Origin: Bacteroidaceae bacterium
GTDB taxonomy: Bacteria > Bacteroidota > Bacteroidia > Bacteroidales > Bacteroidaceae
NCBI GenBank assembly: GCA_017548075.1
Contig: JAFYNL010000004.1
Coordinates: 1 to 64,000 of the forward strand
Reading direction: 5' to 3'
DNA length: 64,000 bases
Shown: piece after piece, positions 8,344 to 58,050 of the stretch
Layout of the letters: each line of letters opens with the position of its first letter
Position numbering within the stretch: position 1 is the first letter of the stretch
The notes under the pieces: generated by a model
The model's input: only the letters and a program-made list of their open reading frames with translations
The model's database searches: none
What the model was told of the DNA's origin: nothing
Program-made: the position numbers and the translations under genes

Positions 8344-8461
8344 TTTCAAAACGACCCTCAGTTAAAATCAAAACTTAACACGTTAACTTGCCCAACTTAA
8401 CACGTTAAAATCGCAAACGTAACACGTTAACTTTGCCAACGTAACTGGGGTTGTTTGAAAA
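8344..8461. repeat. 22-bp periodic palindromic element, copy A
   Basis: Cores of the form TTAACACGTTAA begin at 8375 and 8397, and GTAACACGTTAA at 8419, with a fourth half-core at 8441: exactly 22-base steps. Spacers hold a degenerate TTGCAA. Ends are imperfect inverted repeats: AAACGACCCTCAGTTAA on the left and GTAACTGGGGTTGTTTG on the right. It lies between hsp20 and the radical SAM gene. Confidence 0.85.
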
Positions 8462-8534
8462 CACCACCAGATTCGCAAAACAAAAGAATACATAAAAATT
8501 CTTAACGCCACACTTTTAATTCTTCAAAAAATCG

Positions 8535-8542
8535 TATTTTTG
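8535..8542 (+). promoter_or_regulatory. -7 element touching the radical SAM start codon
   Basis: TATTTTTG matches TAnnTTTG and ends only four bases before the ATG at 8547. Transcription from it would begin at or next to the start codon, giving a leaderless message. Confidence 0.5.
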
Positions 8543-8546
8543 CAGC

Positions 8547-9623
8547 ATGGAAGTCGAGAAATTAGGTCTTCGCAGAAAGGTTGCACTCGAAGCAGCAAGA
8601 TTGCTCAGCAAGAGTCTCAGGTCGGAACATCCGCTCAGGCAGGTGTTCTGGGAGAGTACTGTCCGCTGCAATATCCATTGCCGCCATTGTGGAAGCGATT
8701 GCCGACAGATTGCTTCGACCCCAGATATGCCGAAGGAAGACTTCTTCCGAGTGCTGGATAATATTGCTGCAAAGCGAAATCCTGGCGATGTCTTCATTAT
8801 CCTCGGAGGTGGCGAACCCCTTGTGAGAGAGGATGTTGTGGAGTGTGCGAAGGGCATCTCTTCTCGTGGTTTCCCTTGGGGAATGGTGACGAACGGACTC
8901 TATCTCACACCCGAATTGTTCTACAAACTGAAGGACGCAGGACTTTGCTCCATAACAATCAGCCTCGACGGACTTGAGGAGCAACACACTTGGCTTCGTC
9001 GAAATCCCGATTGCTTCCGCATGGCAAGCCAGGCAATCGACATGATTGTGGCCGACGGAACACTCGTTTACGACATTATGACCTGCGTTCATCAGCACAA
9101 TTACGACACCCTTCCTGCTCTCAAAGAGTTCCTCATCGAGAAAGGCGTCTCGGATTGGCGACTCGCAACTATCTTCCCTGTTGGAAGAGGGGCTCAGGAT
9201 AAGGATCTGCAACTTTCGGGAGAACAGATGAGAGGCTTGCTCGACTTCATCAAAGAAACTCGTAAAGAAGGCCAGATTCACACTTCCTACGGCTGCGAAG
9301 GCTTCCTTGGGGCTTACGAAGGAGACGTTCGCGACTGGATGTTTCGCTGTACTGCAGGGGTAACGGTGGCTTCTGTGCTTGTGGACGGAGGCATTAGTGC
9401 TTGCACGAGCATCAGGTCGAATTATAGGCAGGGAAACATCTACGAGGACGATTTTATGGATGTTTGGGAGCATCGTTTCCAGCTCCACCGCAACCACAAA
9501 TGGATGAAAACCGACGATTGCAAAGCCTGCAAGTTCTGGCGTTACTGCGAAGGTGGCGGATTCCATCTGCGCGACGATGAAGGCAAACTGTTGCTCTGCA
9601 ACCTTAGAAAAATGAAAGAATAG
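8547..9623 (+). CDS. Radical SAM/SPASM maturase of a radical SAM-lipoprotein pair
   Basis: This 358-residue protein has the radical SAM cluster motif C41-x3-C45-x2-C48 (STVRCNIHCRHC), the glycine-rich GGGEPL segment near residue 90 and ISLDG near 140. Between about 250 and 352 lies a Cys-rich SPASM-like region (GCEG, FRC, SAC, CKACKFWRYC, CN) that should hold auxiliary iron-sulfur clusters, as in peptide-modifying enzymes such as anSME and mycofactocin or subtilosin maturases. A 73-residue lipoprotein with two YGxPP repeats starts 27 bases downstream. From memory this matches a radical SAM/lipoprotein pairing noted in Bacteroidota (TIGR04133/TIGR04134 type); the reaction is unknown to me. It is not the sulfatase activator by context. 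Confidence 0.8.
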   Translation: MEVEKLGLRRKVALEAARLLSKSLRSEHPLRQVFWESTVRCNIHCRHCGSDCRQIASTPDMPKEDFFRVLDNIAAKRNPGDVFIILGGGEPLVREDVVECAKGISSRGFPWGMVTNGLYLTPELFYKLKDAGLCSITISLDGLEEQHTWLRRNPDCFRMASQAIDMIVADGTLVYDIMTCVHQHNYDTLPALKEFLIEKGVSDWRLATIFPVGRGAQDKDLQLSGEQMRGLLDFIKETRKEGQIHTSYGCEGFLGAYEGDVRDWMFRCTAGVTVASVLVDGGISACTSIRSNYRQGNIYEDDFMDVWEHRFQLHRNHKWMKTDDCKACKFWRYCEGGGFHLRDDEGKLLLCNLRKMKE

Positions 9624-9650
9624 GAAAAAGAACTAAAAGAAAATAAGAAG

Positions 9651-9872
9651 ATGGCAAAGAAGATTATTTCAGTTTGGCGCATTTTGCTGGGTTCGTTCAT
9701 CACTTTGTTGGGCTTCACAGCTTGCAAAACGTCAAAGAAAGCGCAGCAAGAAGATAGTGCGGTAGTGCTTTACGGACCTCCGCCAGCAAAGGTCGAGAAG
9801 CCCAATCGTGAATTTGAAATGAAGCTTCTCTATGGTGCGCCTCCTGTTAAGATTAAGAAAGTGTCGGAATAA
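9651..9872 (+). CDS. Small lipoprotein partner of the radical SAM enzyme
   Basis: A 73-residue protein with a hydrophobic N-terminal segment ending in a lipobox-like FTAC (Cys25), so the mature part is about 49 residues anchored in the envelope. The mature part contains two copies of a motif, LYGPPPAK (40-47) and LYGAPPVK (60-67), exactly 20 residues apart, separated by charged residues. The Tyr-Gly-x-Pro-Pro sites are plausible targets of the adjacent radical SAM/SPASM enzyme; this is inference from adjacency. Nothing else in the sequence indicates function. Confidence 0.75.
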   Translation: MAKKIISVWRILLGSFITLLGFTACKTSKKAQQEDSAVVLYGPPPAKVEKPNREFEMKLLYGAPPVKIKKVSE

Positions 9873-10011
9873 AGCGTTTCGAATAACAATGTTATTTTTG
9901 TTATTGTCGTTAACGGCACAAGTCCTAATGGATGCCTTAAAATGCTAAAATTCCCGATGGAATGGGCGATTTTTGTGCTTTTGAGGCTCTAAAACGGCAG
10001 GATGAACACAA

Positions 10012-10038
10012 CAAAAAAAGCCCGGCAATTGCCGGACT
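10012..10038 (-). terminator. Terminator of the tRNA-Asn pair
   Basis: On the minus strand GTCCGGCAATTGCCGGGC forms a near-perfect hairpin followed by seven T residues, just downstream of the two tRNA-Asn genes. Confidence 0.85.
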
Positions 10039-10044
10039 TTCTGC

Positions 10045-10117
10045 GCTTCAGGATGGGCTTGAACCAACGACCCCATGATTAACAGTCATGTGCTCTAACC
10101 AACTGAGCTACTGAAGC
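10045..10117 (-). tRNA. tRNA-Asn (GTT), second of the pair
   Basis: The minus strand reads a full 73-base cloverleaf starting GCTTCAGTAGCTCAG, anticodon loop CTGTTAA with anticodon GTT, T arm GGTTCAAGCC, and acceptor closing CTGAAGC. It is identical to the neighbouring copy. Confidence 0.95.
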
Positions 10118-10145
10118 AATTTGCAACTGAGGAAAACCTTTCTGC

Positions 10146-10218
10146 GCTTCAGGATGGGCTTGAACCAACGACCCCATGATTAACAGTCATGTGCTCTAAC
10201 CAACTGAGCTACTGAAGC
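10146..10218 (-). tRNA. tRNA-Asn (GTT), first of the pair
   Basis: Same 73-base sequence as the copy 101 bases away, including the short flank after the 3' end (TTTCTGC on the plus strand). It is transcribed first from the minus-strand TACCTTTG at 10251-10258. Confidence 0.95.
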
Positions 10219-10250
10219 AGTTTTTTTGAGTTTTTCTCTCAATTGCGGTG

Positions 10251-10258
10251 CAAAGGTA
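10251..10258 (-). promoter_or_regulatory. -7 element for tRNA-Asn pair
   Basis: The minus strand reads TACCTTTG 33 bases upstream of the first tRNA-Asn. Confidence 0.6.
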
Positions 10259-10281
10259 TAGGTTTTTTCGAAAATATGCAA

Positions 10282-10289
10282 TATCTTTG
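10282..10289 (+). promoter_or_regulatory. -7 element for PfkB kinase gene
   Basis: TATCTTTG lies 19 bases before the ATG at 10308 and is divergent from the tRNA-Asn promoter. It decides the start: an upstream in-frame ATG at 10248 would lie before the promoter. Confidence 0.6.
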
Positions 10290-10307
10290 CAGAAAAATTT
10301 GCACTAT

Positions 10308-11282
10308 ATGGAGAAAATAATCGGAATTGGCAATGCCTTAGTCGATATTCTTGTCCGCTTGAATGATGATGCTTTCCTCGAACAGATAGGTCTGCCGAAG
10401 GGCAGTATGATGCTGATTGACGAGGCTCGGCAAAAGGAATTGCGGACATGCATGGAAAAGCTTCCAATGGAGCAGGCTACTGGCGGAAGTGCAGGCAATG
10501 CGATGCTTGCTCTCGCTAAACTTGGGGGAAATGCAGGTTTTGTGGGAAAGATTGGAACAGATGTTCTTGGCAAGTTCTATGCGGAAAACTGTAAAAAGGT
10601 GGGCATTGATGCTCGTCTGTTGGAGTGCAGTCTGCCGACGGGAGTCGCGAATACTTTCATTTCTCCTGATGGTGAACGAACCTTCGGAACTTGTTTGGGA
10701 GCTGCTTCCACCTTGCAGGCAAGCGACATCACACCTGCTCTCTTCGAAGGCGTCGCGATGGCTCACATCGAAGGCTACCTTGTGCAGAACCATGAATTGA
10801 TGGAGGCTATCTGTCAGACAGCAATGGAGATGAGTGTGCAACTCAGCCTTGACCTTGCCAGTTATAATGTTGTGGCAGCCGACTTGCCTTTCTTCCAGCA
10901 TTTGGTACAAGACTACATCGACATCGTCTTTGCAAATGAGGAGGAAGCAGCAGCCTTTACCGGTAAGAAAGAACCTATGGAAGCTTTGCGAGAGATTGCG
11001 GCTTTGAAGTGTTTGGCGGTAGTGAAACTCGGCAGCAAAGGAGCGAGTGCAAGGCTTGGACGAGAAGAAGTGATTGTGCCTGCAAATCGTGTTCCAGTTG
11101 TGGATACTACGGCGGCTGGCGACTTCTTTGCAGGTGGCTTTCTCTATGCTCTGAACAGAGGAGCCTCTTTGAAAGACTGCCTCAGTTGCGGAGCCTTGCT
11201 TAGCGAGCACATTATCGGAGTAGTTGGGACTCGTTTACCCGAGGAAGAGTGGAAAGAAATCAGAAAGAAGATTAAGATATGA
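10308..11282 (+). CDS. PfkB-family carbohydrate/nucleoside kinase
   Basis: A 325-residue ribokinase-fold kinase. It begins KIIGIGNALVDI, has the GGSAGNAM signature near residue 61 and the PfkB signature DTTAAGDFFAGGF near residue 265, whose Asp is the catalytic base. The adenosine-kinase-like branch is common in Bacteroidota, but the substrate (adenosine, ribose, fructose or other) cannot be decided from sequence. Its last four bases (ATGA) overlap the start of the S41 protease gene, so they are translated as one operon. Confidence 0.85.
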   Translation: MEKIIGIGNALVDILVRLNDDAFLEQIGLPKGSMMLIDEARQKELRTCMEKLPMEQATGGSAGNAMLALAKLGGNAGFVGKIGTDVLGKFYAENCKKVGIDARLLECSLPTGVANTFISPDGERTFGTCLGAASTLQASDITPALFEGVAMAHIEGYLVQNHELMEAICQTAMEMSVQLSLDLASYNVVAADLPFFQHLVQDYIDIVFANEEEAAAFTGKKEPMEALREIAALKCLAVVKLGSKGASARLGREEVIVPANRVPVVDTTAAGDFFAGGFLYALNRGASLKDCLSCGALLSEHIIGVVGTRLPEEEWKEIRKKIKI

Positions 11283-12913
11283 AACGCCTTATATATATAA
11301 TAATGTGTATGTTGCCGCTTTGTGTGGCAGCCCAGAAGAAGGAGAACGCCAATTCGGCCATCAGCAGGAATCTGGAGCTTTTCAACGATATCTACAAGCA
11401 GCTCGACCTTTTCTATGTGGATTCGCTCAATGCGGATACTGTGATAGGGTGGGGCATTCGCAGTATGCTTCAGCAAGTTGACCCGTTTACCGACTACTAT
11501 CCCGATGATGACGAGGACCTCAAACAGATGGCTACAGGCAAATATGCCGGCATTGGAAGCATCATTCGCTATCATAAGAAAGAGCAAAGAGCGGTTATTA
11601 GCGAGCCATACGAAGGCACTCCCAGTCAGTTGGCAGGTATTAAGGCTGGCGATGTGATTCTTTCCATCGACGGAAAAGATGTGAAGGGAATGCTTACGCC
11701 AAAGGTTAGCAGTATGCTCAGAGGCGAGGCTGGAACGACTTTCGAGCTGAAGGTTCGTCGAGGGCAAGAGGAGATACCGTTCCTTATCACTCGTCAAATG
11801 ATTCAGATTCCCCAGGTTCCTTATTCTGGAATGTTGAGCGACGGACAGACCGGCTACATCTATCTGACGGGCTTTACTGAGGGTGCTTGCAGAGAAGTTC
11901 GAGAGGCGCTCGATGAAGTCCGCAGTCAAGGAGCAAAACGCCTTGTGTTCGACCTTCGAGGCAATCCTGGTGGAGCCATCAATGAGGCTGTGGATATTGC
12001 CAATCTCTTTCTGCCTAAAGGCAAGAAAGTGGTCTATACAAAGGGTAAGATGACGCGCACCAATCGCGAATACTATACGGCTACAGAGCCCGTGGATAGT
12101 GTTATGCCGGTTATTGTGCTTGTTGATGGAGGCTCGGCTTCTGCTTCCGAAATTGTGGCAGGTTCTCTTCAGGATTTCGACAGAGCAGTCATCATGGGTA
12201 CAAGAACCTATGGAAAAGGCTTGGTACAGATGATTCGCGAGGTTCCTTATCACGGCAGCCTCAAGCTCACAACCAGTCGCTACTATATTCCAAGTGGCCG
12301 TTGCATCCAGGCTTACGACTATCGCCACCTTAATGCAGACGGTTCCGCAGGCACAGTTCCCGATAGTTTGACGAACCTTTTCCACACTTCTGGAGGTCGA
12401 GAAGTTCGCGATGGAGGCGGCATTAAGCCAGATGTGGAGGTCAAGCCAGACAGTCTTCCGAATATGATTCCCGAACTTGTTGCGAGCGATGAACTCTTTG
12501 ATTGGGCGACTTCCTACTGTCGCAATCATCCGACAATTCCGCCAGTTGGGGAGTTCAAACTGACTGATGAGGATTATGCGGCCTTTGTGGATAGTATCAG
12601 TAACAGCGGTTTCGAGGCTGGGAAGCCTGCTAAAGATGTGCTGAAAGTGCTTCGAGATGTCATTAAACGCGAGGGTTATCAGGAAGCGACAAAGGCTGAA
12701 CTCGATGCTTTGGAAGCCAAACTGACCTACGACATCAAGGATGATTTGCTGCGATTCCGTAAGGAAATAGAGCCTTATTTGTGTGACGAAATCGTCCATC
12801 GCTACTATTATCAGAAAGGTGGAGCTAAGCAACAACTTGTTGGAGACCCTTGTGTTGAGCGGGCTTTGCAGGTTCTTTCGAGTGACGAATACAATAAAAT
12901 CTTGGGCAAATGA
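11279..12913 (+). CDS. S41 family C-terminal processing peptidase
   Basis: The 544-residue protein has a signal peptide (cleavage after VAAQ, near residue 18), a PDZ domain around residues 85-160 (SEPYEGTPSQLAGIKAGDVILSI region) and the S41 serine protease core with the catalytic Ser in GGSASASE near 286 and the Lys in TYGKGLVQ near 314. It acts in the periplasm on the C-termini of exported proteins. The C-terminal 150 residues are a family extension. It overlaps both its upstream and downstream genes by ATGA. The first codons contain the word ATATATATAATAATGTGTAT, shared exactly with another signal-peptide gene at 46.3 kb. Confidence 0.93.
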   Translation: MKRLIYIIMCMLPLCVAAQKKENANSAISRNLELFNDIYKQLDLFYVDSLNADTVIGWGIRSMLQQVDPFTDYYPDDDEDLKQMATGKYAGIGSIIRYHKKEQRAVISEPYEGTPSQLAGIKAGDVILSIDGKDVKGMLTPKVSSMLRGEAGTTFELKVRRGQEEIPFLITRQMIQIPQVPYSGMLSDGQTGYIYLTGFTEGACREVREALDEVRSQGAKRLVFDLRGNPGGAINEAVDIANLFLPKGKKVVYTKGKMTRTNREYYTATEPVDSVMPVIVLVDGGSASASEIVAGSLQDFDRAVIMGTRTYGKGLVQMIREVPYHGSLKLTTSRYYIPSGRCIQAYDYRHLNADGSAGTVPDSLTNLFHTSGGREVRDGGGIKPDVEVKPDSLPNMIPELVASDELFDWATSYCRNHPTIPPVGEFKLTDEDYAAFVDSISNSGFEAGKPAKDVLKVLRDVIKREGYQEATKAELDALEAKLTYDIKDDLLRFRKEIEPYLCDEIVHRYYYQKGGAKQQLVGDPCVERALQVLSSDEYNKILGK

Positions 12914-14382
12914 AGATGAAAGGACACATAATCGCTTTGTTGGCTTTGGCTTTCGTCTTCCTTAATTCGAAGGCGCAAGAGCAAATCTCGACTGACACAC
13001 TTGCTCAGGATGGGATTGTTCGCGTTCTTGCCATAGGAAACAGCTTCTCTCAAGATGCCGTCGAACAATATCTTTGGGAGCTTGCAAACGAGGCTGGAGT
13101 GAAGATGATTATAGGTAATGCTTATCGAGGAGGACAAGGTTTCCATTCACATTGGATTGATGTGACGGAGGCGAACAATACTTTCGAGTATCGCAAAGTT
13201 GTGAATGGAAGGCGTACGAACAGGCCTCGCTCCTCGCTTTCGAGCATCATAACCGACGAACCTTGGAACTTCATTACCTTCCAACAAGTGAGTCAGGAGT
13301 CGGGTCTCACAACCACATTCGAGCCCGACCTTACCAATCTCATCCAATACAGCCAAGGTCTGCAGACAAATCCGAATGCCGTCTATGGCTATCATCAGAC
13401 TTGGGCATACTCTCACGACAGTACTCATGGAGGTTTCGCGAACTATGGAAATCGTCAGGAAGTCATGTATGATAGTATCTGTCAGGCAGTTATGTATGCT
13501 TTCCTGCAACATCCTGAACTGAAATTTGTTGTGCCAAGCGGAACTGCAATACAGAATGCTCGAACCACTTATCTTGGCGATAATATGAACAGAGACGGCT
13601 ATCATCTGGACCTGAAAATGGGCAGATATACGGCTGCTTGCACTTGGTTCGAGACGATTACGGGCATTTCTCCAGTTGGTTTCAGCTATCATCCGGATGG
13701 AATTGACTACCTGACTGCTCACACTTGCCAAGTTGCTGCACACGAGGCAGTTAGCCGTCCTTATGAGGTTACTGTGCTCGATCAGGAAGGCTTCCCTGCC
13801 ATCAATAATATTGTGCCTACAGGTTTGGTGAAACTCAACTTTGGAGCCGACCAGACTTCCGACCCTACTTGGAACAATATCACTCCTGACATCAGGACTC
13901 ACACCAATATTGTCGACAACAAAATGAATCCGACAGGCATTCTTGTGACCTTTACTGGCGAGTTTGGAGGCTCGAATAGGAACGGAGCCACCTATACTAC
14001 AACCAAGATGCTGATGCCTTCCGAAGTCTCTGGGTCCGCACTTTGGGGCTATGCAGTAGGTAAGTTCGGAGGTCAAGGTCCTCGCCAGAATGCCACTCTT
14101 CGCTTGAGTCATCTCAATCCAGAACTCAAGTATGAGTTCACTTTCTTTTCTTCTCGAGACAGATGTCAGGATTTCCGTCAGACAAGTTTCATAGTTCAAG
14201 GAGAAGACATTGGAGCCGACGACGTTCAATCTGCCAATAATTCTAAGGAAACGGCAGTAGTGAAACATGTTCGACCAACTGCCGACGGACAAGTGACAAT
14301 CACGATAATGCCGGGTTCGTACAACACTAGTCCGAACCAGTTCTACTACTTAAATGCCATGACCATCAAGACAAAGAAATAA
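12910..14382 (+). CDS. Secreted DUF4886 (SGNH-like) protein
   Basis: The 490-residue protein has a signal peptide (cleavage near SKAQ, residue 22). The segment VRVLAIGNSFSQDAVEQYL near residue 34 carries the GNS motif of SGNH-type hydrolases, which is typical of DUF4886 proteins, followed by WNFITFQQVSQESG near 117 and a His-rich region near 250. The last 200 residues look like a beta-rich accessory domain. It is probably an envelope or extracellular esterase, but the substrate is unknown. It starts inside the last codons of the S41 protease gene. Its stop codon overlaps the left arm of a palindromic element. Confidence 0.75.
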   Translation: MKMKGHIIALLALAFVFLNSKAQEQISTDTLAQDGIVRVLAIGNSFSQDAVEQYLWELANEAGVKMIIGNAYRGGQGFHSHWIDVTEANNTFEYRKVVNGRRTNRPRSSLSSIITDEPWNFITFQQVSQESGLTTTFEPDLTNLIQYSQGLQTNPNAVYGYHQTWAYSHDSTHGGFANYGNRQEVMYDSICQAVMYAFLQHPELKFVVPSGTAIQNARTTYLGDNMNRDGYHLDLKMGRYTAACTWFETITGISPVGFSYHPDGIDYLTAHTCQVAAHEAVSRPYEVTVLDQEGFPAINNIVPTGLVKLNFGADQTSDPTWNNITPDIRTHTNIVDNKMNPTGILVTFTGEFGGSNRNGATYTTTKMLMPSEVSGSALWGYAVGKFGGQGPRQNATLRLSHLNPELKYEFTFFSSRDRCQDFRQTSFIVQGEDIGADDVQSANNSKETAVVKHVRPTADGQVTITIMPGSYNTSPNQFYYLNAMTIKTKK

Positions 14383-14488
14383 ACGACCCTCAGTTAAAAT
14401 CAAAACGTAACACGTTAACTTTGCAAACTTAACAGGTTAAAATCGCAATCATAACACGTTAACTTTGGCAACGTAACTGCAGTCGTTT
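14381..14488. repeat. 22-bp periodic palindromic element, copy B
   Basis: Cores begin at 14407 (GTAACACGTTAA), 14429 (TTAACAGGTTAA), 14451 (ATAACACGTTAA) and a half-core at 14473: exact 22-base steps. Arms: AAACGACCCTCAGTTAA from 14381 and GTAACTGCAGTCGTTT to 14488. The left arm overlaps the TAA stop of the preceding gene. This is the cleanest copy. Confidence 0.9.
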
Positions 14489-21236: not shown

Positions 21237-22028
21237 ATGGAAGAACAGGAAAGAATGCAACTCAGAAGCGAGGGTCTTGTCAAGATTTATGGCAAGCGAA
21301 CCGTAGTAAACAACGTCACTTTCGACGTTCGTCAAGGTGAGATTGTAGGCTTGCTTGGTCCGAACGGAGCAGGTAAGACGACCTCTTTCTACATGACTAC
21401 GGGCCTTGTCCTTCCCAATGCTGGCCACATTTACTTGGGAGATGAGGAGATAACCAACCTTCCTGTCTATCAAAGAGCTCGTCGAGGTATCGGCTATCTT
21501 GCGCAAGAAGCGAGCGTTTTCCGTAAGATGAGTGTCGAAGACAATATTGCTAGTGTGCTGGAAATGACGGACTTACCTCGCGAAGCCCAGCGTGAAAAGC
21601 TCGAAAGTCTGATTCAAGAGTTCCATCTCGAAAAGGTTCGAAAGAACATTGGAGACCGTTTGAGTGGTGGAGAAAGACGTAGAACTGAGATTGCTCGCTG
21701 CCTTGCAATAGACCCGAAGTTCATCATGTTGGACGAACCCTTTGCTGGTGTCGACCCGATAGCTGTGGAGGACATACAATATATTGTGTGGAAACTGAAG
21801 CAAAGGAACATCGGAGTCCTCATTACGGACCATAATGTGGAGGAAACGCTCTGCATTACCGATCGCGCTTATCTCCTGTTCGAAGGTCAGATTCTCTTCC
21901 ACGGAACACCTCAGGAACTGAGTGTAAATCCCATCGTTCTCGATAAGTATCTCACTCGTAGTTTCGTCTTGAGACTCAAGGACTTTCAGCAAATGGAGGA
22001 AGAACGAACGCAAACAGAGGAAACGTAA
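21237..22028 (+). CDS. lptB: LPS export ABC ATPase LptB
   Basis: A 263-residue ATPase that powers lipopolysaccharide extraction from the inner membrane. Seen: Walker A GPNGAGKTTSFYM (near residue 41), the LptB-type YLAQEASVFRKMSVEDNI (near 85), LSGGERRRTEIARCLA (near 141) and FIMLDEPFAGVDPIAV (near 163). The YLAQE and GGERRR forms separate LptB from branched-chain amino-acid ATPases. Its TAA stop lies inside the left arm of a palindromic element. Confidence 0.93.
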   Translation: MEEQERMQLRSEGLVKIYGKRTVVNNVTFDVRQGEIVGLLGPNGAGKTTSFYMTTGLVLPNAGHIYLGDEEITNLPVYQRARRGIGYLAQEASVFRKMSVEDNIASVLEMTDLPREAQREKLESLIQEFHLEKVRKNIGDRLSGGERRRTEIARCLAIDPKFIMLDEPFAGVDPIAVEDIQYIVWKLKQRNIGVLITDHNVEETLCITDRAYLLFEGQILFHGTPQELSVNPIVLDKYLTRSFVLRLKDFQQMEEERTQTEET

Positions 22029-22138
22029 CTCAGTTAAATCGCAAACGTAACGTGTTACGTTGGCAAAGTTAACGTGTTACGATTGCAAACTTAACGTGTT
22101 ATGTTTGGCAACTTAACTGCAGTCGTTTTCGAACGACC
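22021..22138. repeat. 22-bp periodic palindromic element, copy C
   Basis: Cores begin at 22047 (GTAACGTGTTAC), 22069 (TTAACGTGTTAC), 22091 (TTAACGTGTTAT) and a half-core at 22113 (TTAACTGCAGTCG): exact 22-base steps. The central dinucleotide is GT, not AC as in copy A. The left arm AAACGTAACTCAGTTAA overlaps the lptB stop; the right arm ends in GCAGTCGTTTTCGAACG. Confidence 0.9.
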
Positions 22139-27892: not shown

Positions 27893-27922
27893 GAAATCCG
27901 CTCCACAAGACATCTTCCAACA

Positions 27923-27990
27923 ACTGCAGTGACGATGGCCAACTTCACGTGTGATGTTTGCCAACTTTACGAGTGACGTTTGGTAACGAA
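27923..27990. repeat. 22-bp periodic palindromic element, degenerate copy H
   Basis: TTCACGTGTGAT begins at 27944 and TTTACGAGTGAC at 27966, a 22-base step, with GGCCAAC and TTTGCCAAC spacers. Left part: ACTGCAGTGACG. It begins 30 bases after the recQ stop and has lost most symmetry. Confidence 0.6.
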
Positions 27991-28086
27991 GCTATTTCTT
28001 TCTACAGATTTGCTTAATCTTTGTTCAAAAACTCCTATACTTGCGAATATAACTAACAAAAGAAAGTCAGAAATCCCAGAATGTCG

Positions 28087-31922: not shown

Positions 31923-31963
31923 AAAGAGAGCGTGCCGCGTCGAAAAACGTAGCACGCTCTTAT
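31923..31963. terminator. Bidirectional terminator between tdh and lpdA
   Basis: AAGAGAGCGTGC pairs with GCACGCTCTT (with further inner pairing GCGT/ACGT), followed by ATTCT. It lies in a convergent gap. Confidence 0.8.
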
Positions 31964-31965
31964 TC

Positions 31966-32077
31966 TAAATGTAGCACGTTACGATGGCAATCATAACGTG
32001 TTAAGTTTGCAATCGTAACACGTTACGTTCGCGATTTAACCACGTTACGTTTGACAACGACGCTGCAGTCGTTTCAA
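31966..32077. repeat. 22-bp periodic palindromic element, copy D
   Basis: Cores begin at 31971 (GTAGCACGTTAC), 31993 (ATAACGTGTTAA), 32015 (GTAACACGTTAC) and about 32037 (TAACCACGTTAC), followed by GACGCTGCAGTCGTTTCAA. The right arm overlaps the lpdA stop codon (minus strand TGA, 32074-32076). Confidence 0.85.
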
Positions 32078-38819: not shown

Positions 38820-39090
38820 AAATGAAAGCCCAACTTTTTATGTTTTCTTAATTAAGTTTGCTTCTGCGGGCGACCTTTGTTCCTTGCCGAAAATGTAAAG
38901 GAATTTTCCCGAAACGCCAATCTCAATTACAGAAAACGGCCTCCGTCGCAGCCAAAGGCCTTAAAGGCTCCAAATTTTGCCGTTTTCGTATCCGTTTGAG
39001 AGTCAGTATCTTGCAAGGTCGGGTAGGAAATCGTAGCAGAGAAAAAGGTCAGGAAATATGTGCTTTTCGACTAAAAATGCCCCATTTCAT
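38820..39090. other. Non-coding stretch between lplA and greA
   Basis: No convincing gene was found here. A plus-strand open frame of 88 codons (38858-39124) lacks a start context, has an Arg/Lys-rich random composition and matches nothing known. The stretch contains several GGCC/GGCCTT inverted words (around 38940-38970) that could fold. The flanking promoter and palindromic element are listed separately. Confidence 0.5.
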
Positions 39091-39200
39091 CGACAGATTT
39101 AACGTGCGAAGTTGGGAAACTTAACTAAGGTCGTTGGCAAAGTTAACGTGTTAAGTTTGAAACTTAACTGAGGGTCGTCGACAAACTTTGCCTGTTAAGT
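39091..39200. repeat. 22-bp periodic palindromic element, copy E
   Basis: TTAACGTGCGAA begins at 39099, TTAACTAAGG at 39121, TTAACGTGTTAA at 39143 and TTAACTGAGGGTCGT at 39164. Steps are 22, 22 and 21 bases. The arm AACTGAGGGTCG is on the right, so this copy is inverted relative to A to C. It lies upstream of greA, not downstream of a gene end. Confidence 0.8.
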
Positions 39201-49440: not shown

Positions 49441-49481
49441 ATTGTCAGTTTTAGTAAATTGTAATCTTATCTAGTGATGTT

Positions 49482-49566
49482 TCGAAACGTAACGTGTTAC
49501 GTTGGCAAACTTAACGTGTTACGATTGCGATCATAACGTGTTACGTTTGCCAACGACACTGGCTTA
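49482..49566. repeat. 22-bp periodic palindromic element, copy F
   Basis: Cores begin at 49489 (GTAACGTGTTAC), 49511 (TTAACGTGTTAC) and 49533 (ATAACGTGTTAC): exact 22-base steps. Then CAACGACACTGG. The right end meets the stop codon of the FKBP gene at 49564. Confidence 0.85.
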
Positions 49567-50469
49567 GTTTTTGGGACCTTCGTTGTCAATCCCTAAAAGC
49601 TCTACAGTAAAGATGAGGCAAGAAAAGGGAGGAATCTTTGCTTGCTCACGATCCTTGTAGGCCAATTCCTGAGGAACATAAAGCATCCACTTACTGCCTA
49701 CAGGCATCATGCAGAGTGCTTCAGTCCAACCTGCAATCACTTGTCCAACAGGGAAAGTAACGGGTTTGTTTCTCTTGTATGAGCTGTCGAACTCTGTTCC
49801 GTCGATGAGGTGGCCTTCGTAGTTAACCTTAACCTTATCCTCTTTCTTGGGAAGTTCGCCTGTACCCATAGTCAGAACCTTGTATTGAAGACCGCTTGGA
49901 GTTACCTTCACGCTGTCCTTCTTGGCGTTAGCCTTGAGGAACTCTTCGCCAGCAATACGGTTTGCACCATATTTCTTCTCCATGTTGACCTTGTGATAGT
50001 ACTCCATCTGCTTCTTGACAATCTTTTGAGTGCTGTCCATAGAAATGGTTGCATTCTCGCCAGTAAAGCCTTCGCGGAAACCCTGAACGAAGAGAGCCTT
50101 GTTCAAGATATCAGTACTATCGTTCACTTGCTTTGATGCTCCAGGATAAACCTGTTCCTCAACTTGTTGACGAATCTCGATACCAGCCAGACGAGCCTTC
50201 TCTCTCTTGTCGGCCTCGGTAAGTTCTGCTTGCTCGAAACCCTTCAGGAAATCAACGACAAAAGTGGTGTCGATGCCCATTCGCTGAGCCAAGTAGTTCT
50301 TCAGACCGTTGGAATTTGCACGACCAAAGTGGTAGCTGAAAACGTCAACACTAACAGTATCGACAACCTCGACAGGCTGCTTTGAGTTTTTCTTCTTGGT
50401 AGTCTTCTTGGCAGCACTCATGCCCAGAGAAAGACTGGCACAGAGTGCGAACAGAATAAGTTTCTTCAT
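49564..50469 (-). CDS. Periplasmic FKBP-type peptidyl-prolyl isomerase
   Basis: The 301-residue protein has a signal peptide (MKKLILFALCASLSLGMSA), an N-terminal helical dimerisation region (about 40-190) and an FKBP domain (about 195-300) with VNYEGHLIDGTEFDSS and the PVGSKWMLYVPQELAY segment. FkpA-like. It catalyses prolyl isomerisation in folding of envelope proteins. It is third in a tandem of three FKBP genes, 12 bases after the second. Basic runs (KKTTKKKNSK) follow the signal. Confidence 0.92.
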   Translation of the reverse strand: MKKLILFALCASLSLGMSAAKKTTKKKNSKQPVEVVDTVSVDVFSYHFGRANSNGLKNYLAQRMGIDTTFVVDFLKGFEQAELTEADKREKARLAGIEIRQQVEEQVYPGASKQVNDSTDILNKALFVQGFREGFTGENATISMDSTQKIVKKQMEYYHKVNMEKKYGANRIAGEEFLKANAKKDSVKVTPSGLQYKVLTMGTGELPKKEDKVKVNYEGHLIDGTEFDSSYKRNKPVTFPVGQVIAGWTEALCMMPVGSKWMLYVPQELAYKDREQAKIPPFSCLIFTVELLGIDNEGPKN

Positions 50470-52004: not shown

Positions 52005-52048
52005 AAACATTTTCTCTACTTTGCGCACTTCCGCATCGTTTTTTTTGC

Positions 52049-52056: not shown

Positions 52057-52084
52057 CATATCTTTAACCAAAAATGGGGCAATT

Positions 52085-52780
52085 ATGAGAGTTGTAGTCT
52101 TGACTGGTGCGGGCATGAGTGCAGAAAGTGGCATCAGTACTTTCCGCGATAATGGAGGTCTTTGGGATCAATACAATGTAGAGGATGTTGCGACTCCTGA
52201 AGGTTGGGCTCGCGATCCGAAACTTGTGACAGAGTTCTATAACATTCGCAGAAAGCAATTGCTCGAAGTAAAACCTTGCCTCGGACACGAACTCGTGGCC
52301 CAGCTTGAAGACAAGCATGCTGTGACAGTTGTGACGCAGAATGTGGACGACCTCCACGAAAGAGCTGGTAACAGCTATGTGATACATCTTCATGGAGAAC
52401 TGATGAAAGTGACCAGCAGTTGGTCTCCTAATGACCCTCGATACATTAAGACTCTCGACAAAGATCACCTCGAAGTGTCCATCGGCGACCTTGCTGATGA
52501 CGGAAGCCAGCTTCGTCCTTTCATTGTTTGGTTTGGCGAGGCAGTTCCTGAAATAGATAAAGCCGTAGAAGAATGCGCAAAAGCAGATATGCTGATTGTC
52601 ATCGGAACCAGTCTCAACGTCTATCCTGCTGCAGGACTTACCCGTTGTGTTCGTCCAGGAACGCCCATCTATCTTATTGATCCCAAGCCTGTTGCATGGA
52701 ATAGTGATGTGCCTGTTCATCAAATCATGAAGGGTGCAAGCGAAGGAATGAAAGAACTAATGACTATTCTTAACTCATAA
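52085..52780 (+). CDS. cobB: NAD-dependent protein deacylase (sirtuin)
   Basis: 231 residues. NAD-site GAGMSAESGISTFRD (near residue 7), TQNVDDLHERAG (near 80) and catalytic His in LHGEL (near 101) are all present, as are WFGEAVPE and GTSLNVYPAAG. It removes acyl groups from Lys using NAD. The small domain between the HGE motif and LRPFIVWFGE has no Cys at all, so the usual zinc site (CxxC twice) is missing. From memory other Bacteroidota sirtuins share this. The next gene starts 14 bases later. Confidence 0.9.
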   Translation: MRVVVLTGAGMSAESGISTFRDNGGLWDQYNVEDVATPEGWARDPKLVTEFYNIRRKQLLEVKPCLGHELVAQLEDKHAVTVVTQNVDDLHERAGNSYVIHLHGELMKVTSSWSPNDPRYIKTLDKDHLEVSIGDLADDGSQLRPFIVWFGEAVPEIDKAVEECAKADMLIVIGTSLNVYPAAGLTRCVRPGTPIYLIDPKPVAWNSDVPVHQIMKGASEGMKELMTILNS

Positions 52781-52794
52781 ATCGAAGAAAACTA

Positions 52795-54456
52795 ATGCCA
52801 AGTGAACTGAGAATACGTTGCCGCAATAATGGCAAGAGAATAAGCGTGCCCTTCGGCAGTAATCTTTATGATGCCTTTGCCTTAGCGAACTTCCAGATGG
52901 AGTATGGTCCTGTGGCGGCTCGCGTCAACAATAAAGTGCAGGGCATGAACTATCGCTTCTATAATAATAAAGATGTGGAGTTCCTGTCGCTCACTTCCCA
53001 TAGTGGGATGAGGACTTATACGCGAACGCTCTTCTTCATCCTTGCAAAAGCAGTTGAAGACGTCTATCCCGATGCACAACTCCTTATCGGCGGTTCTGTT
53101 TGTCGAGGCTATTATTGTCAGCTCCGCATAGGTCGTCCTGTAGAGGATGAGGATGTTCGTCGGATAAAGCAACGAATGCAGGAAATCATAGATGCCGATA
53201 TGCCCATTCATCGCATACAATGTCCTATTGAAGAGGCTATTGAGATGTTCGAGAAGCGAGGTATGAAGAGTAAAGTCCAGTTGTTGGAAAGTCAGGACGA
53301 ACTCTATACCTATTATTATAAATTGGGCGACACAATTGATTATTTCTACAGTTGTTTGCTTACTCGCACAAGTCAGATACATCTCTTCGACCTCATCAAG
53401 TTCTACGACGGCATGCTTCTTCGTGCTCCTTCGCGAAAAGACCCTTCGCAGTTGGAAGAGATCATCGAGCAGAACAAGAAGATGTTCGACGTCATTCGCG
53501 AGCATCAGAGATGGCAGGAGATTCTTGGCGTGCAAACAGTTGGCGAACTCAATTATGCCATAAAGGAAGGTTATGCAACAGACCTTATTAATGTCAGCGA
53601 GGCTTTGCAGTCGAAGAAACTCAGTAACATTGCCGACGAGATAGCTGAGCGAGGTGCCCGTATCGTCTTGCTCGCAGGCCCGAGCAGTAGCGGTAAGACA
53701 ACGACAGCCAAGCGGCTTGCAATCCTTGTGATGGCTTGTGGCTTGCGTCCTCATACCATCAGCACAGACGACTACTTTGTCAATCGTGTTGATACGCCAA
53801 AGGATGCCAACGGAGAGTATGACTTCGAGTGTATTGGAGCAGTTGATACGACTTTCTTCAACAAGCAGATGAATGCCTTGCTAATGGGCGAAGAGGTAGA
53901 GCTTCCGCGTTATGACTTTAAGAAGGGTGAGCGTGTTTTCGAAGGAAGGAAGCTTAAGATAGGCCCTGAAGATGTCATTATCCTTGAAGGTAATCATGCT
54001 CTTAACCCAATCCTCACACAACAGATACCAGAGGAGAAGAAATATCGCATCTATGTCTCTACCCTTACTACCATTCAGCTGGACGACCACAACCACATTC
54101 CGACAGCTGACATTCGATTGCTTCGTCGCATTCTTCGCGACTATAAACATCGCGGCTACTCAGCAGTAGAGACTATCAAGCGTGCTCCAAGCGTCAGTGC
54201 TGGCGAGGAGAAGTGGATTTTCCCCTTCCAAGGGTTTGCTGATGCGACTTTCAATAGTGCCTTGCTTTATGAGTTAGGTGTCATTCGCGAGCAAGTGATG
54301 CCCATCCTGGAACAAGTGCCAGAACGAGCTTTGGAATATGCTGAAGCAAGTCGTCTGCGCAAGTTCTTGGCTTACTTCCGAGGCATTCCTGGAGACCAAG
54401 TACCACCTTCAAGCTTGCTTCGTGAGTTTGCAGGAGGAAGTTCGTTCAAGTATTAA
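52795..54456 (+). CDS. Nucleoside kinase with threonyl-tRNA-synthetase-like N-terminus
   Basis: A 553-residue fusion. Residues about 1-60 are TGS-like, and about 70-200 resemble the second (editing-associated) domain of threonyl-tRNA synthetase, without the synthetase core. From about 285 there is a uridine-kinase/phosphoribulokinase domain with Walker A GPSSSGKTTTAKRL (near 295), STDDYFVNR (near 322) and EGNHALNP (near 400). The family is common in Bacteroidota and Firmicutes; the phosphate acceptor is likely a nucleoside (uridine/cytidine), but this is inferred. It is co-directional with the sirtuin and DUF5009 genes. Confidence 0.88.
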   Translation: MPSELRIRCRNNGKRISVPFGSNLYDAFALANFQMEYGPVAARVNNKVQGMNYRFYNNKDVEFLSLTSHSGMRTYTRTLFFILAKAVEDVYPDAQLLIGGSVCRGYYCQLRIGRPVEDEDVRRIKQRMQEIIDADMPIHRIQCPIEEAIEMFEKRGMKSKVQLLESQDELYTYYYKLGDTIDYFYSCLLTRTSQIHLFDLIKFYDGMLLRAPSRKDPSQLEEIIEQNKKMFDVIREHQRWQEILGVQTVGELNYAIKEGYATDLINVSEALQSKKLSNIADEIAERGARIVLLAGPSSSGKTTTAKRLAILVMACGLRPHTISTDDYFVNRVDTPKDANGEYDFECIGAVDTTFFNKQMNALLMGEEVELPRYDFKKGERVFEGRKLKIGPEDVIILEGNHALNPILTQQIPEEKKYRIYVSTLTTIQLDDHNHIPTADIRLLRRILRDYKHRGYSAVETIKRAPSVSAGEEKWIFPFQGFADATFNSALLYELGVIREQVMPILEQVPERALEYAEASRLRKFLAYFRGIPGDQVPPSSLLREFAGGSSFKY

Positions 54457-54482
54457 ACCTTTCAAACAAATAATTAGTTATC

Positions 54483-55619
54483 ATGAAGAAAAAGACAGAC
54501 GAGAAAGCAGTACAGTTGCCTTCGGATCGACTGATGTCGATTGATGCCCTTCGAGGTTTTGATATGTTGTTCATTATGGGTGGAGCAGCCTTGTTTATAG
54601 CCCTTGCCGAGTGGATTCCTTGCAGTTTCACTCAGGCAATAGCTGAGCAAATGGAACATGTTGAGTGGCACGGACTTAAGCATCACGACACCATCTTCCC
54701 TTTGTTCCTCTTTATTGCAGGCATTTCCTTCCCATTCTCTTTGGCAAAGCAACGCAAGCAAGGTCGCTCTGAGTGGGGTATTCATAGGAAAGTCATCTAT
54801 CGTGGCTTGATGCTTGTCTTCTTGGGAGTTGTCTATAATGGCTTGCTTGACTTCGACTTCGAGAATCTTCGTTATGCTAGCGTTCTTGGCCGAATCGGCT
54901 TGGCTTGGATGTTTGCAGCCCTCATCTTCATACATACAAAGTGGCAAACAAGAGTGTTTATAACGGCAGCTCTGCTTGTTGGTTATTGGCTTGTGGCTGG
55001 CTTCATCCCTGCTCCAGACGGGGGTGGAGAAGACATCTTCTCTGCTCAGGGCTCTATCGTAGGCTATGTTGACCGCATCCTTCTGCCTGGAAGAATTTAT
55101 TATGGAAACATTGATCCGGAAGGCATTCTGAGTGTTATCCCTGCTATCGGCACAGCTCTTTTGGGTATGTTTACAGGCGAATTGGTGAAGTCGAAGCGCG
55201 AAAGCCTGACTCCTGGCAAAAAGGTTCTGTGGATGATACTTGCCGGCATTGTGCTTTTGGTTGTTGGTCTGCTTTGGAACGAAGTGTTCCCCATCAACAA
55301 GAAGATGTGGACAAGTTCCTTCGTACTGGTTGTCGGAGCCTATTCTGTGCTGATGTTTGCCCTCTTCTATTATATTATAGATGTGTTGAACTGGCGTAAG
55401 TGGACGCTCTTCTTCACAGTTATCGGCATGAATTCCATCACTATCTACCTTGCTCAGAGATTTGTCAAATTCTCCTATACCTCGGAGAAACTCTTCAGCG
55501 GACTGGTGAAACTGATGCCAGAGAACTCGCAAGCCTTCTTTACTCAAGTGGCTTATATTGCAGTTTGCTGGTTCTTCCTCTATTTCCTCTATCGCAAGCG
55601 TGTATTCCTGAAAGTGTAA
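54483..55619 (+). CDS. DUF5009 / heparan-N-acetyltransferase-like membrane protein
   Basis: A 378-residue polytopic protein with about ten helices. The start SDRLMSIDALRGFDMLFIMGG and the segment HVEWHGLKHHDTIFPLFLFIAGISFPFSLAKQ (near 55-90, with the conserved His and Asp) match DUF5009 proteins related to heparan-alpha-glucosaminide N-acetyltransferase. It probably moves acetyl groups across the inner membrane onto a sugar. It lies directly before a GH27 enzyme, so an acetylated carbohydrate is plausible, but the substrate is unknown. Confidence 0.82.
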   Translation: MKKKTDEKAVQLPSDRLMSIDALRGFDMLFIMGGAALFIALAEWIPCSFTQAIAEQMEHVEWHGLKHHDTIFPLFLFIAGISFPFSLAKQRKQGRSEWGIHRKVIYRGLMLVFLGVVYNGLLDFDFENLRYASVLGRIGLAWMFAALIFIHTKWQTRVFITAALLVGYWLVAGFIPAPDGGGEDIFSAQGSIVGYVDRILLPGRIYYGNIDPEGILSVIPAIGTALLGMFTGELVKSKRESLTPGKKVLWMILAGIVLLVVGLLWNEVFPINKKMWTSSFVLVVGAYSVLMFALFYYIIDVLNWRKWTLFFTVIGMNSITIYLAQRFVKFSYTSEKLFSGLVKLMPENSQAFFTQVAYIAVCWFFLYFLYRKRVFLKV

Positions 55620-55652
55620 ATTAAATAAGTATAAAACCTAAAACTGACAATT

Positions 55653-57872
55653 ATGATGAAACAGTTTCTTTCCCTCTTAGTGCTTGCCGGCACTATGTCG
55701 CTCTCATCCCTTGCTCAGGATGTTAGTCTGGAGAATGCTAAGTTCCATGTTGGAGACGATGCTTCGTGGGCTGGTGTGAATGTTGACGAAAGCGGTTGGC
55801 GCGACATCAAGAACACGATGACTTGGACTTCGCAAGGCGTCAGAATCGAGAACGGCTTCGGCTGGTATCGCTATCATGTAACCATTCCAAAGAGTTTGCT
55901 CGAGAAATCCGACCTCAAAGAGACCGTCGACTTCAATATGGGCAAGATTGATGATGCCGACGAAGTTTATCTGAACGGCAAGCTCATTGGTAAGAGTGGT
56001 GGTTTCCCTGGTGATGCGAAGGGCTACAGAAGTGCTTGGAGCCTTCCTAGAGTTTATCGTGTAAAGGCCAACGATCCTATCATCAAGTGGGATGCAGACA
56101 ATGTGATTGCCGTTAGAGTCTATAATGGAGGCGATCCTGGCGGCATGTTTGCTGGCCCAGCTACTGTGAGAGTTCCCAATACAATCGACAATCTGAGCAT
56201 CAGCATCAAGGAAGGTGCTAACGGTCAGAGTGTCAGCACACTTACAAGCAAGATGGCTGCTACCAAGAACGGCGTCTTCAAGGTTCAGGTGGAAGACCCT
56301 GAAACGGGCAAAGTGCTTGCAGAGAAGTCGATGAAGGTTTCTGTGAACGAGAAGAAGAACCGCGTCATCAGTCTTCCTTATGACAACCATCAAATGGTTC
56401 GTATCGTATCGAGCTTCACAGAGAGCAAGACTGGCTTGAGCACAGAAACGAAGTACATTCCCAAGTACATCCTCACTCCTGCAGCTCCGGCAGAGCCTCG
56501 CTTCAACACTACTCCTCTTTATGGTGTTCGCCCAGGTTCTCCCATCCACTTCCGCTTTGGTGTTAGTGGCGAGAAACCCATGAAGATTACTTCCGACGAT
56601 CTGCCTGCAGGTCTCGCCATCAATCCTGATAACGGAGCTTTGAGCGGCTCTCTCGAAAAGCCAGGTTCTTATACCTTTACTGTAAAGGCAAAGAATGCGA
56701 AGGGTGAGCAGACACAGAAGTTCACAATTCGTTGCGGCAGTAAGATTGGTCTCACACCTCCAATGGGTTGGAACTCATGGAATTGCTGGGGCTTGAGTGT
56801 CACGCAAGATAAGGTCATCAGCAGTTCTAAGGCTCTCATTGAAAAAGGTTTGGCCGACTATGGTTACTGCTATATGAATATCGACGATGGCTGGGAAGCA
56901 AAGGAACGCAACCCAGATGGAACGATTGCAGTCAACGAGAAGTTCCCAAGCATGAAAGATTTGGGCGACTGGCTTCACTCGGAAGGCTTGAAGTTCGGCA
57001 TCTATTCCTCTCCTGGCGACCTTACTTGTGGTGGCTACCTTGGTTCTATCGACCATGAACTGCAGGATGCGGAGAGTTATAACAGTTGGGGTATCGACTA
57101 CCTGAAGTACGACTGGTGCGGCTATGGTCGCAAGCATAGGACAGAGCCTGACAATCAGACTGTTGCCAGCTATGTTCGTCCTTACTTGTTGATGGAGCGT
57201 TGTCTTCGTCAGCAACCTCGCGACATCTTCTACAGCCTTTGCCAATATGGAATGGCTGAGGTATGGAAGTGGGGTGAAGCCGTTGATGCTAATTCTTGGC
57301 GTACTACCGGCGATATTACGGATACTTGGGAGAGCCTCTACGACATTGGTTTCGGCCAGCAGCCCGACCTCTATCCTTATGCAAAGCCAGGTCATTGGAA
57401 CGATCCCGATATGCTGATTGTGGGTAAAGTGGGTTGGAGCAACAATCTTCGCGACAGCCGACTGACTCCCGACGAGCAATACACTCACATCAGTCTTTGG
57501 ACGCTCCTTGCCAGCAATATGCTCATTGGTTGCGATATTGCTCAGATGGACGAGTTTACCGTTAGTCTGCTCTGCAACCACGAAGTAAATGCAGTCAATC
57601 AGGACATCCTTGGCAAGCAGGCTCAAAGAGTCGTTCAGGATGGAGCCATTCAGGTTTGGGCTCGTCCTTTGAGCGATGGCAGCTATGCAGTCGGCATCTT
57701 CAATGTAGGTGCGACAGACGCAAGGGTTGACTTCAAGAAGTACTTTGGCGAGATGGGAATCGAGACTCTGAAGGGTGTTCGCGACCTTTGGCGTCAGAAA
57801 GACCTCAGCACTTCCGATGTGAAATACTTCATTCCCACTCATGGAGTCAAGTACCTGAAAGTGAAGTTCTAA
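55653..57872 (+). CDS. Secreted multidomain GH27 alpha-galactosidase
   Basis: The 739-residue protein has a signal peptide (cleavage near SLAQ). About 25-180: a galactose-binding-like beta domain (WYRYHVTIPKSLL, DDADEVYLNGKLIG). About 285-370: an Ig-like putative sugar-binding domain (DLPAGLAINPDNGALSG). About 373-660: the GH27 barrel beginning LTPPMGWNSWNCWG, with nucleophile Asp in YLKYDWCGYG (near 482) and acid/base Asp in WRTTGDITDTW (near 549). The last part is a beta domain. It removes terminal alpha-galactose. An ATG one codon downstream (55656) is an equal choice. Confidence 0.93.
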   Translation: MMKQFLSLLVLAGTMSLSSLAQDVSLENAKFHVGDDASWAGVNVDESGWRDIKNTMTWTSQGVRIENGFGWYRYHVTIPKSLLEKSDLKETVDFNMGKIDDADEVYLNGKLIGKSGGFPGDAKGYRSAWSLPRVYRVKANDPIIKWDADNVIAVRVYNGGDPGGMFAGPATVRVPNTIDNLSISIKEGANGQSVSTLTSKMAATKNGVFKVQVEDPETGKVLAEKSMKVSVNEKKNRVISLPYDNHQMVRIVSSFTESKTGLSTETKYIPKYILTPAAPAEPRFNTTPLYGVRPGSPIHFRFGVSGEKPMKITSDDLPAGLAINPDNGALSGSLEKPGSYTFTVKAKNAKGEQTQKFTIRCGSKIGLTPPMGWNSWNCWGLSVTQDKVISSSKALIEKGLADYGYCYMNIDDGWEAKERNPDGTIAVNEKFPSMKDLGDWLHSEGLKFGIYSSPGDLTCGGYLGSIDHELQDAESYNSWGIDYLKYDWCGYGRKHRTEPDNQTVASYVRPYLLMERCLRQQPRDIFYSLCQYGMAEVWKWGEAVDANSWRTTGDITDTWESLYDIGFGQQPDLYPYAKPGHWNDPDMLIVGKVGWSNNLRDSRLTPDEQYTHISLWTLLASNMLIGCDIAQMDEFTVSLLCNHEVNAVNQDILGKQAQRVVQDGAIQVWARPLSDGSYAVGIFNVGATDARVDFKKYFGEMGIETLKGVRDLWRQKDLSTSDVKYFIPTHGVKYLKVKF

Positions 57873-57897
57873 GCCGCAACGGATTCCCCTAAACCAT

Positions 57898-57930
57898 AAG
57901 GCCTGAGGCAAAATGTCCCAGGCCTTTTTC
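57898..57930 (+). terminator. Terminator of the GH27 gene
   Basis: AAGGCCTG (57898-57905) pairs with CAGGCCTT (57919-57926), followed by TTTC. Confidence 0.8.
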
Positions 57931-57938
57931 TTGCTCTC

Positions 57939-58050
57939 CAAACAACCCTCAGTTAAAATCCAAACGTAACAGGTTACGATTGCAATCATAACAGGTTAAG
58001 TTTGCCAACTTAACACGTTAACTTTTCAATTAACCCACGTTAACTTTGCA
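57939..58050. repeat. 22-bp periodic palindromic element, copy G
   Basis: Cores begin at 57966 (GTAACAGGTTAC), 57988 (ATAACAGGTTAA) and 58010 (TTAACACGTTAA), 22 bases apart, and a fourth near 58030 carries two extra bases. Left arm: AAACAACCCTCAGTTAA. The right arm has decayed. Confidence 0.85.

Follow-up and report, generated by a model that had tools for sequence, protein, structure and literature searches.

The question raised by the DNA considered here, the first 64,000 nucleotides of contig JAFYNL010000004.1 of an uncultured, gut-type Bacteroidaceae bacterium (referred to below, at its full length, as the window), is why eight short palindromic arrays whose sequence drifts should all keep a period of 22 bp. 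When more of the genome and of its relatives is brought in, the arrays prove to lie on a 22-bp lattice that is kept in unrelated letters, to be evenly spaced, to keep apart even when neighbours belong to unlike letter classes, to hold one register across class boundaries, and to occupy sites that are partly conserved between genomes while the letters at them turn over. These properties suggest an undescribed way of organising the chromosome in this genome and in several relatives. The even spacing and the exchange of letters were missed in the initial annotation of the window because more of the genome is needed to see them.

The genome itself (G000 in the numbering used for sampled genomes) is available as a draft assembly in 66 contigs with 88% completeness, and 449 kb of its 2.66 Mb was sampled; between 3 and 280 kb was taken from each of the other genomes, which are mostly drafts, and genes were called with a simple model of our own. 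The arrays of the window are the following.

8349..8456, no strand: array 1, with both inverted arms; cores at 8375/8397/8419; behind a predicted terminator at 8324-8336.
14381..14488, no strand: array 2, with both arms; cores at 14407/14429/14451; starts within the stop codon of the gene at 12910-14382.
22021..22128, no strand: array 3, with both arms; cores at 22047/22069/22091; overlaps the end of the gene at 21237-22028.
27918..27992, no strand: array 4, degenerate, two to three units.
31951..32062, no strand: array 5, with convergent genes on either side; 63 bp past a stop codon; cores in mixed orientation.
39083..39170, no strand: array 6, degenerate, within a 599-bp divergent gap.
49470..49571, no strand: array 7; cores at 49489/49511/49533; the orthologous gap of G051, also 123 bp, holds an array of other letters.
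57940..58059, no strand: array 8; cores at 57966/57988/58010; upstream of a tRNA-Arg gene (58183).

All eight copies claimed initially are thus present, and a profile built from 64 array segments (its alignment leaving out L001, a duplicate of the window, and L020, L033 and L038, lone matches in unrelated organisms) and searched with nhmmer recovers all eight and no ninth. The claim that cores of the form TTAAC-NN-GTTAA recur at exact 22-bp steps holds for the step, but most of the cores listed carry one or two mismatches, and the copies at 27923 and 39091, though present, are degenerate. Among core pairs in the window with at most two mismatches per core, the lag is 22 bp in 11 cases, 44 in 8 and 30 in 1, with no other lag between 13 and 44. 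With at most one mismatch allowed, the window has 14 matches to the motif TTAACNNGTTAA, where 1.2 would be expected and the highest count in 100 shuffles is 4; 5 of the 14 matches are exact, and one, at 63559, is isolated. The second palindrome described in the spacers is there, but it is not a separate line of evidence: once a sequence repeats every 22 bp and has one dyad, another dyad 11 bp from the first necessarily follows. A scan of the window against Rfam at gathering thresholds returned four tRNAs and nothing else.

The genome search, copy count and mapping relative to genes that had been proposed at the outset give at least 262 profile matches in the genome (both strands counted, 150 of 1150 first-look candidates scored); in the 449-kb sample nhmmer finds 55 merged arrays, and none in the reversed sequence. 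Fifty of these lie in intergenic gaps, 4 at stretch ends and 1 inside a called gene. Among the distances listed, the median to a stop codon is 24 bp (n=55) and the median to a start codon 185 bp (n=45). In this sample an array stands between the genes of 14 of 35 convergent pairs, 27 of 235 tandem pairs and 9 of 37 divergent pairs; for the 186 arrays of all sampled genomes the corresponding figures are 45 of 127 convergent, 110 of 809 tandem and 27 of 139 divergent gaps, with 4 arrays at an edge.

Within the tandem gaps of all sampled genomes, 95 of 110 arrays are closer to the upstream stop than to the next start, a position that would suit a role in RNA, as hairpins which end or stabilize transcripts at gene 3' ends. 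This explanation is kept alive by the folding of eight arrays, five of which fold better than shuffles (z of -2.4 to -5.3), while the other three reach only -0.9 to -1.8; some GC-rich arrays of G051 also end like intrinsic terminators, and one scored as a terminator. As a general role, termination is rejected, since three scanned regions contain no excess of predicted terminators (22, 11 and 22 against 18.1, 18.4 and 21.2). A scan of seven of the eight window arrays for a GC-rich hairpin with a T run gave only weak inner matches in two (8423-8443 and 39132-39148); a hairpin and T run can be read by eye at 57939, uncalled in the terminator scan, and the stretch before 31966, which lies outside the scanned regions, looks similar. 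A separate terminator is predicted between the stop codon and the array at 8344, and this, together with the 27 of 182 placed arrays that stand in divergent gaps, favours a role at the level of DNA. Kilobase spacing of the kind described below is not predicted by an RNA role, which is judged very unlikely.

Of 101 same-genus genomes, the present one included, 10 contain the exact double core, which is absent from all 60 others drawn from the family (three of them same-genus) and all 59 others drawn from the order; the profile matches 31 of the 101, many of them with few matches. A narrower pattern, searched in a named collection, returned 71 stretches, of which 68 come from uncultured Bacteroidales, Bacteroidaceae or Prevotellaceae genomes (from herbivore guts wherever the title gives a habitat) and 3 are lone matches in unrelated organisms. 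The 22-bp step recurs in other letters: in lag scans 22 bp, together with 44, predominates clearly over all other lags in G000, G011, G026, G051, G053, G069 and G070, and it does not stand out in G010 and G065 (100 kb each). A “sequence-blind” detector, which finds 22-bp-period arrays whatever their core letters, was built after the profile alone had failed to show even spacing in three relatives (coefficient of variation, CV, of the gaps 0.91-1.10), relatives whose arrays mostly carry other letters. Its yield at a threshold of 50 is 52 arrays for G000 (429 kb), 26 for G051 (200 kb), 24 for G011 (195 kb), 8 for G053 (200 kb), 8 for G065 (100 kb) and 3 for G010 (100 kb), and none for two shuffles of each of these genomes. 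Some AT-rich matches persist in the counts from this detector, for example in G053, G065 and G069. Set to periods of 20, 21, 23, 24 or 26 bp the detector gives 0-5 arrays, and at a period of 18, with a scaled threshold, 3-13 in every genome, so that the counts for G010 and G065 are not above control. That 372 of 376 steps equal 22 is not independent evidence, because the detector selects that lag; the lag scans are independent.

The letter classes include TTAACGTGTTAA, GCCGCACGCGGC, TACATGTA, AATGGTTAACCATT, CTTCTGCAGAAG and ACTAGTGTGACG. Per 100 kb, other genera of the family hold 4 arrays (G108), 2 (G105) and 1 (G112), and the same-genus G137 has 1 in 120 kb; ten genomes of other families give 3 weak matches (scores 51-55) in about 175 kb, and 50 kb of E. 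coli gives none. Since the same step recurs in arrays whose letters are unrelated, continues from one class into another within an array and turns up sparsely in other genera, the period is constrained beyond what recent duplication would leave. The initial annotation had taken drift at a constant period as a sign of selection for a folded nucleic acid or for a bound protein; the constancy of the period stands, and either a fold or a protein may lie behind it.

Symmetry, which bears on that choice, is common but not universal. Arrays picked by lag alone have a mean dyad symmetry of 28.2 of 44, against 21.2 for column-permuted controls, and 76 of 112 are matched by at most one of 30 permutations; G070, in contrast, has the period without the symmetry (20.6 against 20.4 of 44 for permuted controls; 1 of 10 arrays at that level), which argues against a fold as the essential feature. 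Pair covariation, the measure for the compensatory changes whose test was suggested at the outset, is clear at core position 3 in the units of the own genome (0 of 2000 permutations within the core and 2 of 2000 across the spacer) and weaker at position 5 within the core (30 of 2000), but there is no excess at the remaining core positions. Between element halves, an array's own halves exceeded the median chimera in 5 of 52 cases in a design that favoured chimeras, an earlier form of the test having been biased in that the arrays' own centres had been optimised. In the own sample 7 arrays have two units, 21 have three, 19 have four, 3 have five and 2 have six; an unusually long array in a rumen Bacteroidales genome (L075, from 3733) has nine cores at 22-bp steps. 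The imperfect inverted arms first described for the best copies are real but not general: among 52 sampled arrays of the own genome 12 have both, 21 have one and 19 have none, compared with 14 that have an arm among 2000 random stretches of 100 bp. From arm to arm, the 12 two-armed arrays all measure 64, 86 or 108 bp, that is 20 + 22n.

Palindromic cores would also be expected of operator arrays for sequence-specific dimeric regulators, or of sites for a ParB/Noc-like segregation or nucleoid-occlusion protein. Two further features fit such sites, namely the recurrence of a CGTG centre with a TTTGC-type spacer in many class I arrays and the rarity of self-complementary centre dinucleotides (10 of 180 units in the own genome against 64 expected), as in operators with an uncontacted centre. 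Several unrelated core classes within one genome do not fit, and a density of about one array per 7-8 kb is high for a regulon. A ParB/Noc paralogue was rejected as a candidate, since each of 18 genomes, dense or sparse in arrays, has one ParB_N match. Sites of the parS/Noc type are dispersed chromosomal palindromes with chromosome-level roles and, as far as is known, one sequence class each; the present arrays are likewise dispersed and palindromic, but they come in many letter classes beside a single ParB_N gene per genome. A role as operators or segregation sites is accordingly rated distinctly unlikely.

Beyond the lattice, the distance between arrays is also regular. The own genome provides 50 gaps with a mean of 7566 bp, a CV of 0.40 and a minimum of 3531 bp; relaxing the cutoff to E = 1 adds no array, and tightening it to E = 1e-4 leaves 46 gaps with a CV of 0.44. 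Random placement over intergenic gaps (five schemes of 5000 draws, 25,000 in all) gives mean CVs of 0.81-0.87 and a lowest value of 0.53, and predicts 15-17 gaps below 3.5 kb, never fewer than 5, where none is observed. In G051 (25 gaps, CV 0.46) none of 3000 draws is as even, with one gap below 3 kb against 7.6 expected, and in G011 (23 gaps, CV 0.50) a fraction of 0.0003 of draws is, with one such gap against 6.5 expected; both sets consist partly of other letters than those of the own genome. The 7 gaps of G053 are not spaced beyond random placement. When 18 stretches of ten genomes are pooled, after merging arrays less than 500 bp apart and removing low-complexity and in-gene matches (a filter that drops array 6 and keeps 7 of the 8 window arrays), 4 of 159 gaps are below 3 kb against 45.3 expected and a lowest value of 28 in 2000 draws. 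Short gaps are found in 3 of 94 cases between neighbours of unlike class and in 1 of 65 between like ones, the classes being assigned from simple motif counts.

Arrays of unlike class also share a register. Around the 18 arrays that have at least two CATG at 22-bp steps, 24 of 48 flanking CGTG/CACG stand at offset 0 modulo 22, and 13 further ones stand at offset 5 or 17, many of them from overlapping CGTGCCGTG; in G051, an array some 78.4 kb from the start of the sampled C10 stretch places three letter classes on one lattice. Contig C5 of G051 also carries, near 120544, 130777 and 139484 (all in L132), three-unit CATG cassettes with near-perfect inverted ends GTTCGTTATA, near-identical to one another and in register with adjoining arrays, which possibly form a discrete nested cassette.

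Comparison of orthologous sites adds the exchange of letters. The own sample and stretches of eight other genomes have 132 adjacent gene pairs in common; once matches to simple AT sequence, two of them in G051, are removed, 8 of these pairs carry an array in both, 6 in the own genome only, 6 in the other only and 112 in neither (Fisher p 4e-6, in a comparison whose pairs are not independent, as one site may count repeatedly). The occupied sites number 14 when each is counted once, and 6 of these are common to the own genome and at least one relative. The gap behind the gene ending at 8285 holds TTAACACGTTAA arrays in G000 and G051, the TACATGTA class in G026 and an ACTAGT class in G070; the gap at 49482 is 123 bp long in G000 and G051 alike, with different array letters; and the site at 31966 has the AATGGTTAACCATT class in G011. 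At 14381 there is no array past the orthologous stop in the 15 relatives (of 23 listed) with a readable stop and next start. Weak arrays (scores 50-55) occur behind the next gene in G088, G005 and G034, about 630-760 bp past the stop, and G051 has one (score 50) about 1.1 kb past it, a nearer match being an AT palindrome. Orthologous gaps that lack an array are often just a few bp long. On contig C10 of G051, a gap of 1118 bp contains a degenerate array along with a long AT palindrome and a short-period GAGTCAAGAGT repeat, and its ortholog in the window is 82 bp.

Presence and absence at orthologous gaps, with empty gaps of a few bp, would also be produced by small non-autonomous mobile elements, related in kind to miniature inverted-repeat transposable elements (MITEs) or repetitive extragenic palindromes (REPs), that are moved by an unknown structure-recognising enzyme and evened out by target immunity or purging. 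The presence of one or two inverted arms in 33 of 52 arrays, and of inverted-ended CATG cassettes beside other arrays, is consistent with this. Among the 12 two-armed arrays, however, no target duplication of 3 bp or more was found (one has 2 bp), and unlike letter classes keep apart too. Amplification driven by REP-associated tyrosine transposases (RAYTs) was rejected: the Y1_Tnp search, other transposase families not being searched, gave no match in the own genome (88% complete) and none in 8 of the 11 dense genomes, one of the 3 positives being marginal. Mobility is on balance unlikely, though it keeps an appreciable share of the probability.

Minisatellites kept periodic by slippage, made palindromic by template-switch correction and tolerated only away from promoters, would be a neutral product of mutation. 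Units are indeed alike within an array while arrays differ, G070 has period without symmetry, and arrays are nearer to stops than to starts; slippage has no known reason, however, to choose 22 bp across classes or to space arrays evenly over kilobases, and this origin is highly improbable.

Keep-apart across classes, the common register and exchange at fixed sites together point to something that reads geometry and distance. The arrays are tentatively regarded as sites of a chromosome-wide grid read by its geometry, perhaps topological insulators, a reading to which somewhat less than an even chance is given. Each array comprises two to six 22-bp units, mostly three or four and usually palindromic, and arrays occur about once per 7-8 kb, in intergenic DNA, away from start codons and most often directly past a stop codon; what is kept is the 22-bp step, often with one dyad for each 11 bp, together with the distance from site to site, the letters being exchangeable. 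The lattice might be read by some abundant architectural factor able to wrap or bridge DNA, for instance DNA gyrase or a nucleoid protein that dimerises or polymerises, the sites might be used by it as topological insulators or loop anchors, and selection may act for one working site per domain. The stricter proposition that the cell responds to the lattice (two helical turns of 11 bp each) and not to the letters, so that one class replaces another at a fixed site without change of step or spacing, is possible but doubtful. It is a matter of speculation that underwound DNA, with 11 bp to the turn, is the reason why the step is 22.0 and not 21 bp.

Several observations weigh against such a grid. 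Arrays are sparse in G053 (8 per 200 kb, spaced no more evenly than chance) and in other genera, which implies that a grid is not essential family-wide. A lower detector threshold adds three close neighbours in the own genome (377, 447 and 1007 bp), some stretches are less even (CV 0.78 in G011_C15, 0.67 in G069_C2 and 0.64 in G034_C34; 0.68 pooled), and the CV of the window is 0.58 once array 6 is lost. The number of genes between arrays has a CV similar to that of distance, so that physical distance is not established as the relevant variable. The partner protein is only hypothetical, many letter classes per genome require a sequence-blind reader, and arrays in divergent gaps loosen any link to positive supercoils behind genes.

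The initial annotation did not recognise the arrays as a described family, and a limited search of the open-access literature found no match. The bacterial interspersed mosaic elements (BIMEs) and REPs of enterobacteria are, as far as the cited texts go, interspersed extragenic palindromic units of alternating symmetry at gene 3' ends, with a proposed role in supercoil relief (PMC2817692, PMC3733652). The present arrays are similarly intergenic, palindromic, of high copy number (55 in 449 kb) and mostly near gene 3' ends, but differ in having a lattice fixed at 22 bp, letters that can be exchanged and even spacing on the kilobase scale, and in the lack of a Y1 transposase match in 8 of 11 dense genomes; the end tag of REPs is GTAG or CGTC and the arms here are AAACGAC / GTCGTTT, a comparison made by inspection only. 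The nearest functional analogue would be BIME-2, reportedly described by Moulin and colleagues as a topological insulator and also said to be a gyrase target. The BrickBuilt MITE of Porphyromonas gingivalis, in the part of its description consulted, consists of tandem 23-nt units of one consensus, AGAYCATARTATCCTCTCRTRTG, between inverted ends resembling IS5-family elements, with 19 copies in one strain (PMC4596501). It shares with the arrays a Bacteroidales host and short tandem units, which in the two-armed arrays likewise lie between inverted ends, and the arrays differ from it in their 22-bp unit, other letters (consensus compared by eye), many classes and spacing rule. The open-access search returned nothing on evenly or regularly spaced palindromic arrays, and the titles and abstracts of the Prevotella or Bacteroides repeat literature that it covered make no mention of 22-bp arrays. 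We know of no counterpart to a sequence-independent, geometry-read system of chromosome organisation.

Two other features of the window may be recorded. A short repeat resembling TGTTGTACCTTTGCACCC lies 70-90 bp behind three arrays (22219, 28082 and 58129) and looks like a Bacteroidetes-type promoter of the next gene. Two tandem tRNA-Asn genes, 101 bp apart and with 86-nt copies 99% alike, occupy 10037-10223.

It is an old question how a bacterial chromosome comes to be split into topological domains of about 10 kb, and whether DNA sequence marks these domains. The arrays are visible, countable DNA marks of about that scale; several species have them evenly placed, and orthologous sites show natural gains, losses and exchanges of letters. 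Should the arrays delimit domains, domain marking would become directly testable; if they are mobile, a rule that keeps unrelated sequences apart would be equally surprising.

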